Shown: positions 45,503 through 49,085 of the stretch, piece after piece
Layout: every line of letters begins with the position of its first letter
Numbering within the stretch: position 1 is the stretch's first letter
Source of the DNA: Rhodococcus sp. RD6.2
GTDB taxonomy: Bacteria > Actinomycetota > Actinomycetes > Mycobacteriales > Mycobacteriaceae
Length of the DNA stretch: 64,000 nucleotides
NCBI RefSeq assembly: GCF_001040705.1
Contig: NZ_CVQP01000003.1
Span: 1 to 64,000, forward strand
Direction: 5' to 3'
Notes under the pieces: generated by a model
The model's input: the letters and a program-made list of their open reading frames with translations, nothing else
Told to the model about the DNA's origin: nothing
Databases searched by the model: none
Program-made: the position numbers and the translations under genes

Positions 45503-45922
45503 ATGGAGTCAGACTTCGCTTCTCGACTGAACAAGCTGTTCGAGACAGTGCATCCACCAGGCCGCAAGCCGCACACCAACACCGAGGTCGCCGAGGCTCT
45601 CAACGGTTCCGGCCACCGCATCTCCAAGCCCTACATCTCCCAGTTGAGGAACGGGCAGCGCACCAATCCTTCACCCGAAACCGTTGCGGCACTTGCCCAG
45701 TTCTTCAAGGTCAAGTCCGACTACTTCTTCGACGACATCTACGCCGCTCGGATCGACCACGACCTCGAACTACTCTCCCAGCTCCGCGGTTACGGGCTGC
45801 GGCGCCTCTCGGCTCGTGCATTCGATCTGTCCAGCGAGTCGCAGGAACTCCTCACCGCCATGGCCGAAAAGCTCCGGCGCAGTGAAGGTTTGCCCGCCAC
45901 TCCCCCGGACTCCACCGAGTAA
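45503..45922 (+). CDS. EspR-like XRE-family DNA-binding regulator
   Basis: A 139-residue protein closely patterned on mycobacterial EspR: N-terminal FASRLNKLFETVHPPG, helix-turn-helix at about 25-72 (TNTEVAEALN...ISKPYISQLRNGQRTNPS), FFKVKSDYFFDD, and a C-terminal helical dimerisation part. EspR is a nucleoid-associated regulator of cell-wall and ESX genes. Here it heads a four-gene unit (stop to next start three bases) with a surface stalk protein, a protease and a membrane protein. It could be a local regulator cleaved by that protease, as ImmR is by ImmA; this is inference. Confidence 0.82.
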   Translation: MESDFASRLNKLFETVHPPGRKPHTNTEVAEALNGSGHRISKPYISQLRNGQRTNPSPETVAALAQFFKVKSDYFFDDIYAARIDHDLELLSQLRGYGLRRLSARAFDLSSESQELLTAMAEKLRRSEGLPATPPDSTE

Positions 45923-45925
45923 CAG

Positions 45926-47569
45926 GTGCGAACCACCTTCGCACAGGCAAGGCGCTGGCGGGTCCTGACCGTCAGCGCCTTGCTGGGTGTCGCGATCACC
46001 GTGCCCGCCGTCGTCATCGCCGCACAGTACGACATCGGGGACGGCGACTCATCCGCCGCGACACCCGCCCTCGTCGCCCACGAACAGGATCAGGGCAACA
46101 GGGGTAACGGGAACGGCAACAACGGCAACGGCAACGGCAACGGCAACGGCAACGGTCCGGGCAACAACGGCAACGGCAACGCCTACGGCCACTGGTGCCA
46201 CCACGATCACAATCGGCACGGAAACCACTGCGGTGGAACGCCGTCCACCACAACCCGGCCGACCCGAACCACGACTGTCCGGCCCACTACCACAACGGTC
46301 GAGCCGACCACCACCACCGTGGAGCCGACGACAACCACCGTCGAGCCGACCACCACAACGGTCGAACCCACCACCACCACCGTGGAACCGACGACAACCA
46401 CCGTCGAGCCGACCACCACAACGGTCGAACCCACCACCACCACCGTGGAACCGACGACAACCACCGTCGAGCCGACCACCACAACGGTCGAACCCACCAC
46501 CACCACCACCACCGTGGAACCCACCACCACCACCGTCGAACCGACGACGACCACCGTCGAACCGACGACGACCACCGTCGAACCGACGACGACCACCGTG
46601 GAACCCACCACCACCACCGTCGAACCGACCACCACCACCACCGTCGAACCCACCACCACCACCACCGTCGAACCGACGACAACCACCGTGGAACCCACCA
46701 CCACCACCGTCGAACCGACCACCACCACCACGGTCGAACCCACCACCACCACCGTGGAACCGACCACCACAACGGTCGAACCCACCACCACCACCGTGGA
46801 ACCGACCACCACCACCGTCGAACCGACGACGACCACCGTCGAACCGACGACGACCACCGTGGAACCCACCACCACCACGGTCGAACCCACCACCACCACC
46901 GTCGAACCGACGACAACCACCGTGGAACCCACCACCACCACCGTCGAACCGACGACAACCACCGTGGAACCCACCACCACCACCGTCGAACCCACCACCA
47001 CCACCGTCGAACCCACCACCACCACCGTCGAACCGACAACGACCTCAGCCGAGCCGACGTCGACGACGACGCAACGTGCCGACGGGGAGCAGTCCAGCGG
47101 CGGCAACGACGCCCGAGGCGATGCGGGCGACGAGCCGACTCCGTCGTCCGGCCCGGAGTCCGCCGCGCCCGAGCAGCCGAGCGAGTCCGACCAGCCGACC
47201 GCACCGGAACAGACCACTGCGCCCGAACCGCCCTCGCGAGACGAGGCGGCCGGTGATGATCAGGGGATGGATGAGCGCGACAACCGCACCGATGCGGCAG
47301 CGGAGCCTGCGGCTGTATCCGAGGGCGCGTCGACGGCGGCGCGGCCGGAATCGACCGCGGGTGCGGCAACCTACGCTGCGCCGTCGCAGCCGGACGTGGC
47401 ATTGGCGTCGGCGTCGCGCCCGGGTGGCGACGTCGGCGCGGCAACCGCAGGTGTGACAGCAGTTCTGGCTGCGGCCGGTGCGACGGGGTTCATGAGTTTC
47501 CGGAGTGCACGCGCAACTCGCTTGCGTTTGGATCGCGCGCGGGCGGAGTTCCTGGAGCCGCGGCCGTGA
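45926..47569 (+). CDS. surface stalk protein with about 35 TTTTVEP repeats
   Basis: The 547-residue protein has an N-terminal hydrophobic segment at 12-33 (signal peptide or anchor) and an Asn/Gly-repeat region (57-85). A His/Cys cluster HWCHHDHNRHGNHC follows at 89-102, then about 35 copies of the heptad TTTTVEP (about 120-371; a few have five or six Thr), an acidic Pro/Glu region (372-490), and a C-terminal membrane helix near 505-522 with a basic cytoplasmic tail. The layout is a long, probably glycosylated stalk tethered at both ends or at one. GTG 45926 has no good Shine-Dalgarno and probably depends on the stop three bases upstream. No homologue function is known to me. Confidence 0.75.
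   Translation: MRTTFAQARRWRVLTVSALLGVAITVPAVVIAAQYDIGDGDSSAATPALVAHEQDQGNRGNGNGNNGNGNGNGNGNGPGNNGNGNAYGHWCHHDHNRHGNHCGGTPSTTTRPTRTTTVRPTTTTVEPTTTTVEPTTTTVEPTTTTVEPTTTTVEPTTTTVEPTTTTVEPTTTTVEPTTTTVEPTTTTVEPTTTTTTVEPTTTTVEPTTTTVEPTTTTVEPTTTTVEPTTTTVEPTTTTTVEPTTTTTVEPTTTTVEPTTTTVEPTTTTTVEPTTTTVEPTTTTVEPTTTTVEPTTTTVEPTTTTVEPTTTTVEPTTTTVEPTTTTVEPTTTTVEPTTTTVEPTTTTVEPTTTTVEPTTTTVEPTTTTVEPTTTSAEPTSTTTQRADGEQSSGGNDARGDAGDEPTPSSGPESAAPEQPSESDQPTAPEQTTAPEPPSRDEAAGDDQGMDERDNRTDAAAEPAAVSEGASTAARPESTAGAATYAAPSQPDVALASASRPGGDVGAATAGVTAVLAAAGATGFMSFRSARATRLRLDRARAEFLEPRP
46283..47040 (+). repeat. 21-base repeat array with 63-base higher-order units
   Basis: About 35 imperfect copies of a 21-base unit encoding TTTTVEP. 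Codon choice varies in a patterned way: at about 46341-46500 a three-heptad block of 63 bases (Thr codons ACC/ACA/ACG, Glu GAG/GAA alternating) recurs three times. Later blocks use other combinations. Insertions of one or two Thr codons occur at 46500, 46630, 46655 and 46725. The array keeps every forward frame and two reverse frames free of stops. Confidence 0.85.
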
Positions 47570-48099
47570 CCGCCTCCCGCACCGAGTCGGCGCGCGGTGA
47601 CGGGTCGCGTCCGGTCCGCGATCATCGCCGCGTCCTTGCTGCGGTCGACGCCGTCCTGGACATGGCTGCGCAGACACATGCGGTGACGATCGAGGACATC
47701 GTCCAGTCGTTGGCCGACAGGCGTCGTCGTCCGATCGAGATCGTGTACGAGGATCTGGGTCCGGGGGTGTGGGGACAGCGCCGCGAGTTCGCCGATCACG
47801 ATCGGATCGTGCTCGCGCGTAGCCTGCCGAGTGTGACGAGAACCCTTGCCCACGAAGTCGGACACATCGTTTTCCGCCACCCTGGTGCTGCCGTCAAGGA
47901 GGCGACTCTCGCGGCCGACGACGACCTGATCGCGTACATGCTCAGCCAGCGGTCGTCGGCCTCGGTCGATCCGGATCGCGAGGCGTTGCACGAGTGGGAG
48001 GCGGAGGCATTCGCGGTCCGGCTGTTGCAGCGACTCGGCCAATTCGACCGCGGTGACGACTGGCGTCCGCTGCTCTGCTTCGACGAGGCTCTCGGGTGA
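47566..48099 (+). CDS. ImmA/IrrE-type zinc metalloprotease
   Basis: The 177-residue protein has the zinc motif HEVGH (His96, Glu97, His100) in TRTLAHEVGHIVFRHP and the third-ligand segment HEWEAEAFA (142-150), the ImmA/IrrE arrangement. Family members cleave XRE-type repressors to switch on genes. Its start overlaps the stalk-protein stop (GTGA 47566-47569), and its stop overlaps the next start in the same way. The upstream EspR-like regulator is the obvious candidate target. Confidence 0.82.
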   Translation: MTASRTESARGDGSRPVRDHRRVLAAVDAVLDMAAQTHAVTIEDIVQSLADRRRRPIEIVYEDLGPGVWGQRREFADHDRIVLARSLPSVTRTLAHEVGHIVFRHPGAAVKEATLAADDDLIAYMLSQRSSASVDPDREALHEWEAEAFAVRLLQRLGQFDRGDDWRPLLCFDEALG

Positions 48100-49085
48100 T
48101 CACCTGGGTTGTCGCGCTGCTGTGTTCGACGGCGGTGGGCGCTCGCATCGGCCGGTTGACCGTTCGACCGCCGTCCCTGGCGCGGATCGCGATCGCGATC
48201 GCCGCGGTGACGTTGACGGTGGCGGCGACGGTGCGGACGACGACCGTGACCGAGGTGCTGGACGGGTCCGGCGACGGTGTGGCCGCGACGGTGTTCGAAT
48301 TGTGCCTGGTGCTGTTCGCCGCGACGACCGCGTTGATCGCGGCTGCGTCGCTGACGGTGTTGAGCACGCGGCCACAGTGGCCGCTCTCGGCCGCGTCCGC
48401 GTTGGTCGCGGCTGTTGTCGTCGTCGTGGAACTGGTGTCCGCGCACCACAGTCCGGTCACGTCCGCCTATCTGGTCGTCGCGTCACTGTTCGCGACCGGA
48501 GTGTCGGTGCGGTACATCCGCTGGAACCCGCTCGGGCGGGCGATCGGCCTGTACAGCGCGGGACTGGTTGTAATTGCGGCGATGTGTGCGGTGAATCTCG
48601 CGACGGCCACCGACGATCACGTCTCCCCCGGGTCGGCGTGGTGGTCGCTCGCGGTGATACTCGTCAGCGCCGGCTGCTCGTCGGTGATGATCGAGGCATG
48701 GGCGCGAGCACGGCTCGACCTGCGCCGGACCAGGACGGTGTGGACGATGCTGACCACGGCGCATCCCGAACTGCTCGACAGCGACTACAAGTCCGTGACG
48801 ACGACGCTGACGGCCGACGACCGGGTGTCGCAGATCCTCGACGGCCTGTACCTGCACGCGGGTGCCGGACTGATCACCCGCGGTGCGTCCGAACCGCCCA
48901 CGGAGATGTCGACACAGGCGGATGCGGTCGCCGGCTGGCTGCATCGCACCGCGGTCGAAATCGAACCGTTCGATCCGGGGTGGCTGGGCACACCGGAGGG
49001 CGTGACGGATCGGCAGTGGATCCTCGCGGTCTGTACGGCGTACGACCGACCGCGCAGACGCGCCGCCACCACTGCCGGGGTGTAA
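48096..49085 (+). CDS. polytopic membrane protein, MAB_1171c-like
   Basis: A 329-residue protein with about seven transmembrane helices in residues 1-205 and a soluble C-terminal part of about 120 residues (LDLRRTRTVWTMLTTAHPELL...). This layout, next to an ImmA/IrrE protease and an XRE regulator, matches a family I know as MAB_1171c-like putative transporters; function unproven. It is coupled to the protease by a GTGA overlap (48096-48099) and closes the four-gene unit. Confidence 0.65.
   Translation: MITWVVALLCSTAVGARIGRLTVRPPSLARIAIAIAAVTLTVAATVRTTTVTEVLDGSGDGVAATVFELCLVLFAATTALIAAASLTVLSTRPQWPLSAASALVAAVVVVVELVSAHHSPVTSAYLVVASLFATGVSVRYIRWNPLGRAIGLYSAGLVVIAAMCAVNLATATDDHVSPGSAWWSLAVILVSAGCSSVMIEAWARARLDLRRTRTVWTMLTTAHPELLDSDYKSVTTTLTADDRVSQILDGLYLHAGAGLITRGASEPPTEMSTQADAVAGWLHRTAVEIEPFDPGWLGTPEGVTDRQWILAVCTAYDRPRRRAATTAGV

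Follow-up and report, generated by a model that had tools for sequence, protein, structure and literature searches.

In BlaR1/BlaI and MecR1/MecI, an outside sensor, membrane helices and a cytoplasmic zinc protease are linked to a DNA-binding target. Proteases of the M78 (ImmA/IrrE) type are found beside regulators of the XRE type in IrrE/DdrO of Deinococcus and in ImmA/ImmR of ICEBs1 and phages. In the first of these systems, IrrE cleaves DdrO (PMC7907104). In Rhodococcus sp. RD6.2, a stretch of 64,000 nucleotides (NZ_CVQP01000003.1, positions 1 to 64,000; the window) carries such a protease gene together with genes for a relative of EspR (Rv3849 of Mycobacterium), a surface stalk protein and a seven-helix membrane protein. 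These four genes are a real conserved unit of which the stalk is a true member; the arrangement is more than chance because it recurs widely.

Conservation of the unit

Genomes were sampled from the family (151), from Mycobacterium (198) and from the class (296). The window protease matches 57 of the 151 family genomes at E<=0.001 and 35 at E<=1.3e-28; five of the 35 belong to genome group g29 and 30 do not. Group g29 is taken as Mycobacterium because the EspR of one of its unit-bearing loci (L073) matches that of the tuberculosis agent at E=1.4e-67. In each of the 30 non-mycobacterial loci with a close protease, the seven-helix profile has a match near the protease and EspR is encoded within 3.4 kb of it, and the protease and seven-helix genes abut or overlap in most close loci. 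A search for co-occurrence, suggested in an earlier note on this DNA, shows that a stalk gene with the conserved tail described below immediately precedes the protease in 28 of these 30 genomes and that a tail gene does so at 100 of 119 mycobacterial places. The two stalk-less loci are in G031, which has a tail gene elsewhere in the genome, and in G014, a genome that is 66% complete. The tail profile searched alone (alignment A2) finds 29 of the 151 family genomes, all 29 with a close protease. The protease is present in four of the six genomes sampled from the window's genus; G021 and G064 have neither it nor an EspR match at E<=1e-15. In the class sample, the strong protease type is restricted to the window's own (GTDB) family, where it occurs in 14 genomes; the best match outside has an E of 4.0e-13.

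The position of EspR varies. Its gene is found upstream on the same strand in 5 of the 30 close loci and downstream in convergent orientation in 25; in the named Gordonia loci (L037, L038, L040) it is upstream as well. The earlier view that the four genes are made together stands for Rhodococcus/Gordonia-type loci only and fails elsewhere, EspR being convergent in those 25 loci and in Mycobacterium, and a single four-gene operon was rejected as a general rule.

More distant protease/seven-helix pairs of the family are usually accompanied by an EspR-like gene, but not by a stalk. No tail match at E<=0.001 was found at the distant protease loci L078-L103, the L073-type mycobacteria excepted, and 9 of 16 distant pairs examined have, in place of a stalk, a membrane protein of 183-236 aa whose gene separates the seven-helix gene from the regulator. 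Absence of the stalk beside nearly all protease/membrane pairs, named in advance as evidence against the unit, is thus seen in distant relatives and not in close ones. The 183-236 aa protein in the stalk's place at L078-L085 and L100 is a multi-helix protein, PAP2-like by eye, and the EspR-like gene there is convergent.

The four proteins

The window regulator is, judged by its sequence, a full-length relative of EspR. It matches EspR in the PDB (3r1f) at E=4.7e-38 over residues 1-132 (phmmer) and HTH_3 at E=4.7e-9, and it is 52% identical to the EspR of L073 (126 aa). Its first description as EspR-like falls short of this match, and the true mycobacterial EspR is found at the corresponding unit. 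That the stalk tail resembles the C-terminal motif of EspR is an impression gained by eye alone.

The stalk of the window carries 35 T(4-6)VEP repeat units, 31 of them exactly TTTTVEP, written in 15 distinct DNA forms (Tandem Repeats Finder, TRF: period 21, 35.1 copies). Ectodomains differ strongly between stalks (TTTTVEP, TTTTEP, GTGSAAVGSA, NGNGPGNN or poly-Pro); often rich in Thr/Pro or Gly/Asn, they are probably glycosylated. A metal-binding-like His/Cys cluster and a membrane helix, both pointed out before, are present in the window, but the cluster is not general in the family because a His...Cys pattern occurs in only 13 of 25 ectodomains scanned. The constant features of stalks are a single helix and a tail about 22 residues long. 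The nocardial-type tail (A2) reads [FY]-R-x-A-x-A-...-A-R-A-E-F-[LF], and the mycobacterial type (alignment A4) reads R-x-G-Y-x-x-Y-L-(helix)-G-Y-R-Q-A-K-A-G-...-R-F. Because the two profiles agree only moderately (probability 55, E 1.2e-4), the case for a common origin of the two tails consists of their position, their layout and this weak match. Stalks tested against Pfam/NCBIfam gave no family name and nothing useful, and a search of the PDB with the tail sequence gave only E>0.1. The helix and tail would define an unnamed protein family, recognized by its tail and not by its repeats. Two other readings of the stalk were rejected: that it is an accident of the window, as the tail recurs in other genomes, and that it is chiefly a sortase-anchored protein, as inspection found no LPxTG-like motif before the helix and the conserved part comes after it. 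In Aldersonia (G019, L059), two tandem stalk genes are found upstream of the protease.

The window protease scores 21.4 bits against Pfam M78 (PF06114), under the cut-off of 22, and all 23 relatives examined match this family at E<=0.01. HExxH and a downstream Glu ligand are invariant in the 23 aligned proteases. Its sequence has no match in the PDB; its model has the M78 fold and is nearest to IrrE, PprI and CapP, so that the protease is predicted to be IrrE/CapP-like. The proposal of an ImmA/IrrE zinc protease agrees with this model and with the HEVGH and EWEAE motifs. In one scan of named genomes, the closest relatives of the window are R. triatomae BKS 15-14 (91% over the protease), R. tukisamuensis and R. 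spelaei (79%). The window's own genome has three other M78 matches (L001, L002, L003), the two strongest of which lie in frames of 475 and 568 aa.

The polytopic membrane protein expected from the sequence has, in an AlphaFold2 model, seven membrane helices and a C-terminal domain, and the helix arrangement is suggestive of a G protein-coupled receptor (GPCR). Against the family of MAB_1171c (NF042915) the window protein scores 11.1 bits, with a cut-off of 100; 14 of 25 aligned seven-helix relatives match NF042915 at E<=0.5, the best at 2.3e-17. Knockout of MAB_1171c lowers biofilm formation by about half (PMC8707978). In one genome (G263, L198), the seven-helix gene is matched as two separate pieces and may be broken.

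A candidate membrane-to-nucleoid switch

The four proteins may form a membrane-to-nucleoid switch that is split over four polypeptides and ends on EspR, a reading that we regard as having an even chance of being correct. Variable surface stalks would sense the envelope or the surroundings, and their common helix and tail would serve as an adaptor that acts through the membrane on the seven-helix protein. This transducer would hold the small M78 protease at the cytoplasmic side. Once activated, the protease would cut EspR in or near its C-terminal half and so release it from DNA, and EspR would in turn control its own promoter and the stalk operon. We infer the direction of signalling, the contacts between the four proteins and the cleavage of EspR; the step from protease to EspR would follow from what is known of the protease family and from the pattern of constraint on EspR.

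The unit in Mycobacterium

Strong matches to the protease profile (E<=4.4e-54) occur at 119 places in 118 of the 198 Mycobacterium genomes, and any match at E<=1e-6 in 127. At 114 of the 119 places, espR is convergent to the protease gene and lies 1564-1773 bp on. The five exceptions are three genomes in which the contig ends within 1.8 kb towards the expected espR (G279, G211, G267), one with espR on another contig (G252) and one with a split espR (G167). In the last of these (L223, G167:C1), which is unit-bearing, espR is interrupted by an insertion of about 1.5 kb, in a region roughly 1.6-3.5 kb from the start of the protease gene. Six genomes of 4.6-5.1 Mb (G229, G233, G195, G288, G310 and G331) have, in addition to the espR unit, a second protease copy with an E of 1e-28 to 1e-31.

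The mycobacterial unit is located between espR and an Rv3850-like gene and not at the sdhB/Peptidase_S11 site of the window. We take the surrounding block, named mostly after the gene order of H37Rv, to be a glpQ1-like gene, a zinc-ribbon protein gene, sodA, two genes and espR, and on the other side hns-like, rraA-like and ethA/ethR-like genes. The empty site has the same flanks, with espR and the Rv3850-like gene 81-210 bp apart in 35 of the 35 unit-less genomes examined (of 80). An M78 protease and an XRE-type regulator are a typical pair, and the unit could be read as a domesticated toxin-antitoxin or prophage-type ImmA/ImmR module. This origin is highly improbable: the unit is not carried on an integrating element but keeps a fixed place with the same flanks, as the 114 places and 35 empty sites show, its distribution is tree-like, and such pairs are not known to us to include a stalk or a seven-helix protein.

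The mycobacterial tail profile at E<=0.001 matches 118 of the 198 genomes, which are exactly the 118 with the strong protease, none discordant (at most 32 candidates were scanned per genome, 20 genomes rescored in full gave the same best matches, and diverged tails in unit-less genomes may escape). In the 19 genomes where no tail gene directly precedes the protease, a tail protein is encoded at another place; in 18 of them it is longer-tailed, with about 40-50 extra residues past the shared tail, and in G324 it is short-tailed. The distance from the protease to the Rv3850-like gene is 193-434 bp without a stalk vs 1052-1897 bp with one, in 25 loci that were partly picked for a missing tail; L208-L217 were selected for lack of a full tail match and do not represent stalk loss fairly. 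In G274, G220 and G311 (L208, L212, L216), all that is left of the stalk gene is a remnant of the tail beside the protease, a picture of stalk loss in progress.

In 76 of the 118 genomes there is more than one tail match at E<=0.001, a count that takes in weak and partial matches and the duplicated contigs of G162, and at least 40 genomes have an extra tail copy (E<=3.3e-14) that lies apart from the protease. One protease/seven-helix pair therefore seems to serve several tail proteins, many stalks sharing one hub. Among the loci examined for long-tailed proteins off the unit (L230-L247), several adjoin a gene that looks by eye like nitronate monooxygenase.

On a tree of EspR and the Rv3850-like protein from 69 genomes (L223 with one espR piece only), absence of the unit corresponds to two changes, one in a clade of 34 genomes (support 100/99) and one in L258 by itself, and with both losses the tail genes elsewhere are gone too. 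The 14 of the 69 rows closest to EspR of the tuberculosis agent (letters from the PDB) are all unit-less, the top row at 91%, whereas no unit-bearing row exceeds 84%. In a tree of EspR by itself, no grouping around the sequence of the tuberculosis agent is well supported. EspR has been kept, and the stalk, protease and seven-helix genes have been lost, in the mycobacterial branch that stands closest to this sequence.

Constraint on EspR and EspR-type sites

If the unit acts on the C-terminal half of EspR, constraint there should fall after the unit is lost. Relative to the Rv3850-like gene (c3), the tree length of the C-terminal half is 0.58 in 31 genomes with the unit vs 1.31 in 34 without it, and that of the N-terminal half is 0.22 vs 0.24 (rows L218, L219 and L223 with the unit and L258 without it left out). 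Compared pairwise with a site bootstrap, unit-less genomes exceed unit-bearing ones 2.90-fold (2.01-4.81) in the C-terminal half; the ratio for the N-terminal half is 0.85-fold (0.45-1.54). The result holds when the four rows are restored (pairwise, C/c3 0.56 vs 1.41; N/c3 0.20 vs 0.18). Positions fixed with the unit and variable without it cluster around alignment residues 94-113. The C-terminal half of EspR, and not its DNA-binding half, is relaxed about 2-3-fold in unit-less Mycobacterium.

These data bear on whether EspR belongs to the unit at all. It might be a mere syntenic neighbour of surface structure and maturation genes (stalk, protease and seven-helix protein), its change in the unit-less clade reflecting a new virulence role or lifestyle. 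EspR is indeed found without the unit in at least 78 mycobacterial genomes and in other genera, and the proteins most like EspR of the tuberculosis agent, for which other functions are described (PMC3315491), belong to the large unit-less clade. We nevertheless judge mere neighbourhood to be quite unlikely. EspR switches side and strand and still remains adjacent, G021 and G064 in the window's genus lack both protease and EspR, EspR-like genes are also present at distant loci, and the N-terminal half and the neighbouring gene are without general relaxation.

EspR is reported to bind its own promoter, with TTTGC[TC][GA] as its consensus (PMC3315491). The 300 bp upstream of espR contain 48 sites in 34 unit-bearing loci and 33 in 35 unit-less loci (means for 19 permuted motifs, 4.5 and 4.4; maxima, 19 and 21), and the motif is present in the espR promoters of 34 of the 34 unit-bearing and 32 of the 35 unit-less mycobacterial loci. 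In unit-bearing genomes the stalk operon begins in the region ahead of the Rv3850-like gene, and the 400 bp before this gene contain 25 sites over the 34 unit-bearing loci, compared with a mean of 3.8 and a maximum of 12 for 19 permuted motifs and 4.9 for Markov shuffles; in unit-less genomes, there is 1 site in 35 loci. Sites of the EspR type are over-represented ahead of the stalk operon in half of the loci.

Sites at this operon would also be expected if EspR merely regulates its expression and the substrates of the protease are the stalk tails, so that the protease and the seven-helix protein would trim or release the stalks. Within a protein that varies elsewhere, it is the tail that is conserved; it always accompanies the protease in the 198 mycobacteria, and extra tail proteins elsewhere suit several substrates per protease. 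We consider stalk-tail cleavage unlikely: it leaves unexplained why the C-terminal half and not the DNA-binding half loses constraint in the unit-less clade, and why EspR-like genes stand beside distant protease/membrane pairs that have no stalk.

A switch that ends on EspR is supported because adjacency is kept through rearrangement (EspR upstream in 5 of 30 loci, convergent in 25 of 30 and at 114 of 119 mycobacterial places), and because tail and protease co-occur, stalks are found elsewhere, the parts are lost together, constraint on the C-terminal half is tied to the unit in Mycobacterium and EspR-type sites are present. Several points weigh against it. EspR is present in 196 of the 198 Mycobacterium genomes, with or without the unit, and the co-occurrence of tail and protease there amounts to few independent losses, given the two changes on the tree. 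Outside Mycobacterium, the change in constraint has no clear repeat, with C/N at 0.82-2.12 in four small orphan groups vs 0.43-1.82 in unit groups, and a new role of EspR in the unit-less clade would also explain a relaxed C-terminal half. Sites upstream of the stalk operon are present in only 17 of 34 mycobacterial loci, and the sdhB-espR gap of the window has no EspR-type site. Mycobacterial EspR is described as a nucleoid-associated protein with hundreds of sites and not as a classical repressor (PMC3315491). Finally, the support is computational.

More tentatively, and with doubt somewhat outweighing belief, EspR, which is known in the tuberculosis agent as a regulator of virulence and a nucleoid protein, may be what remains, at the DNA-binding end, of a surface-to-nucleoid receptor that has otherwise been lost. 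In the ancestral receptor, several interchangeable mucin-like stalks with a common cytoplasmic adaptor tail would have fed one GPCR-like seven-helix hub in control of a zinc protease that acts on EspR; loss of the hub in one mycobacterial branch would have freed the C-terminal half and left an unregulated global regulator.

Features of the window

The unit consists of four frames, all on the + strand (45503-49085), the last three starting with GTG. It is flanked by genes for an sdhB-like iron-sulfur protein and a Peptidase_S11 protein. The four frames were found where the earlier note had placed them, and so were the junctions: 3 bases separate the regulator and stalk genes, and GTGA overlaps join stalk to protease (47566-47569) and protease to seven-helix gene (48096-48099).

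Table 1. Coordinates and supporting evidence for the four genes and their parts.
Feature	Position	Strand	Evidence
EspR-family regulator (N-terminal HTH, C-terminal dimer-type half)	45503..45922	+	139 aa; phmmer to PDB EspR 3r1f, HTH_3
Stalk protein gene	45926..47569	+	547 aa ORF; same-position gene with conserved tail in 28/30 close relatives
Stalk N-terminal hydrophobic segment (signal peptide or anchor)	45962..46024	+	Translation inspected
Stalk His/Cys cluster GHWCHHDHNRHGNHC	46187..46231	+	Residues 88-102
35 T(4-6)VEP repeats	46286..47035	+	Repeat finding (TRF) and unit count
Stalk C-terminal membrane helix	47432..47500	+	Conserved segment, alignment A2
Stalk conserved Arg-rich cytoplasmic tail (RSARATRLRLDRARAEFLEPRP)	47501..47566	+	A2 profile matches
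M78 (ImmA/IrrE-type) protease	47566..48099	+	177 aa; GTG start overlaps stalk stop
HEVGH zinc-binding motif	47851..47865	+	His, Glu, Gly, His invariant in 23 sequences
EWEAE, third-ligand region	47992..48006	+	Alignment E126, E128, A129, E130 invariant in 23 sequences
Seven-helix membrane protein	48096..49085	+	329 aa; GTG start overlaps protease stop; AlphaFold2 pLDDT 89.5
Post-bundle C-terminal part, predicted cytosolic	48702..49082	+	Model helices beyond seventh; membrane side inferred from positive charges

Comparison with known systems

If the switch is real, it is a new layout for bacterial signalling, with many variable surface bristles, one common tail, one seven-helix hub and one protease. 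Unit-bearing Rhodococcus, Nocardia and fast-growing mycobacteria would then hold the missing upstream part of EspR, which bears on how EspR is controlled and on its purpose before virulence. In the literature searched, which largely leaves out subscription journals, EspR and IrrE were not found as whole words in one paper, EspR was not found in the listed papers on ImmA/IrrE, and no mention of DUF6545 was found.

Among single components, the regulator has full-length homology to EspR of Mycobacterium (Rv3849), and the orthologue itself adjoins the unit in most unit-bearing genomes, whereas the mycobacterial clade that lies closest to EspR of the tuberculosis agent has none of the partner genes. 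Relatives of the seven-helix protein have a distant similarity to the putative transporter MAB_1171c (NF042915)/DUF6545, although the window protein itself is far under the curated cut-off (11 vs 100 bits). CapP/CapH of CBASS and an M78-containing regulator of Mycobacterium (6d2s/6cyj) are found in other gene contexts, and we know of no stalk or seven-helix protein beside either.

As a whole, the unit shares with IrrE/DdrO and ImmA/ImmR an M78 protease beside an XRE-type regulator and the fold of the protease. Those systems are without membrane partners, whereas here a seven-helix protein and a stalk family are added and the regulator is EspR. With BlaR1/BlaI and MecR1/MecI the unit would share its way of working, from an outside sensor to a DNA-binding target through a zinc protease, but it is made of four polypeptides instead of one receptor, its protease is of the M78 and not the M56 family, and its regulator belongs to another family. 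The unit would thus work like BlaR1/BlaI or IrrE/DdrO while being built differently, a member of neither.

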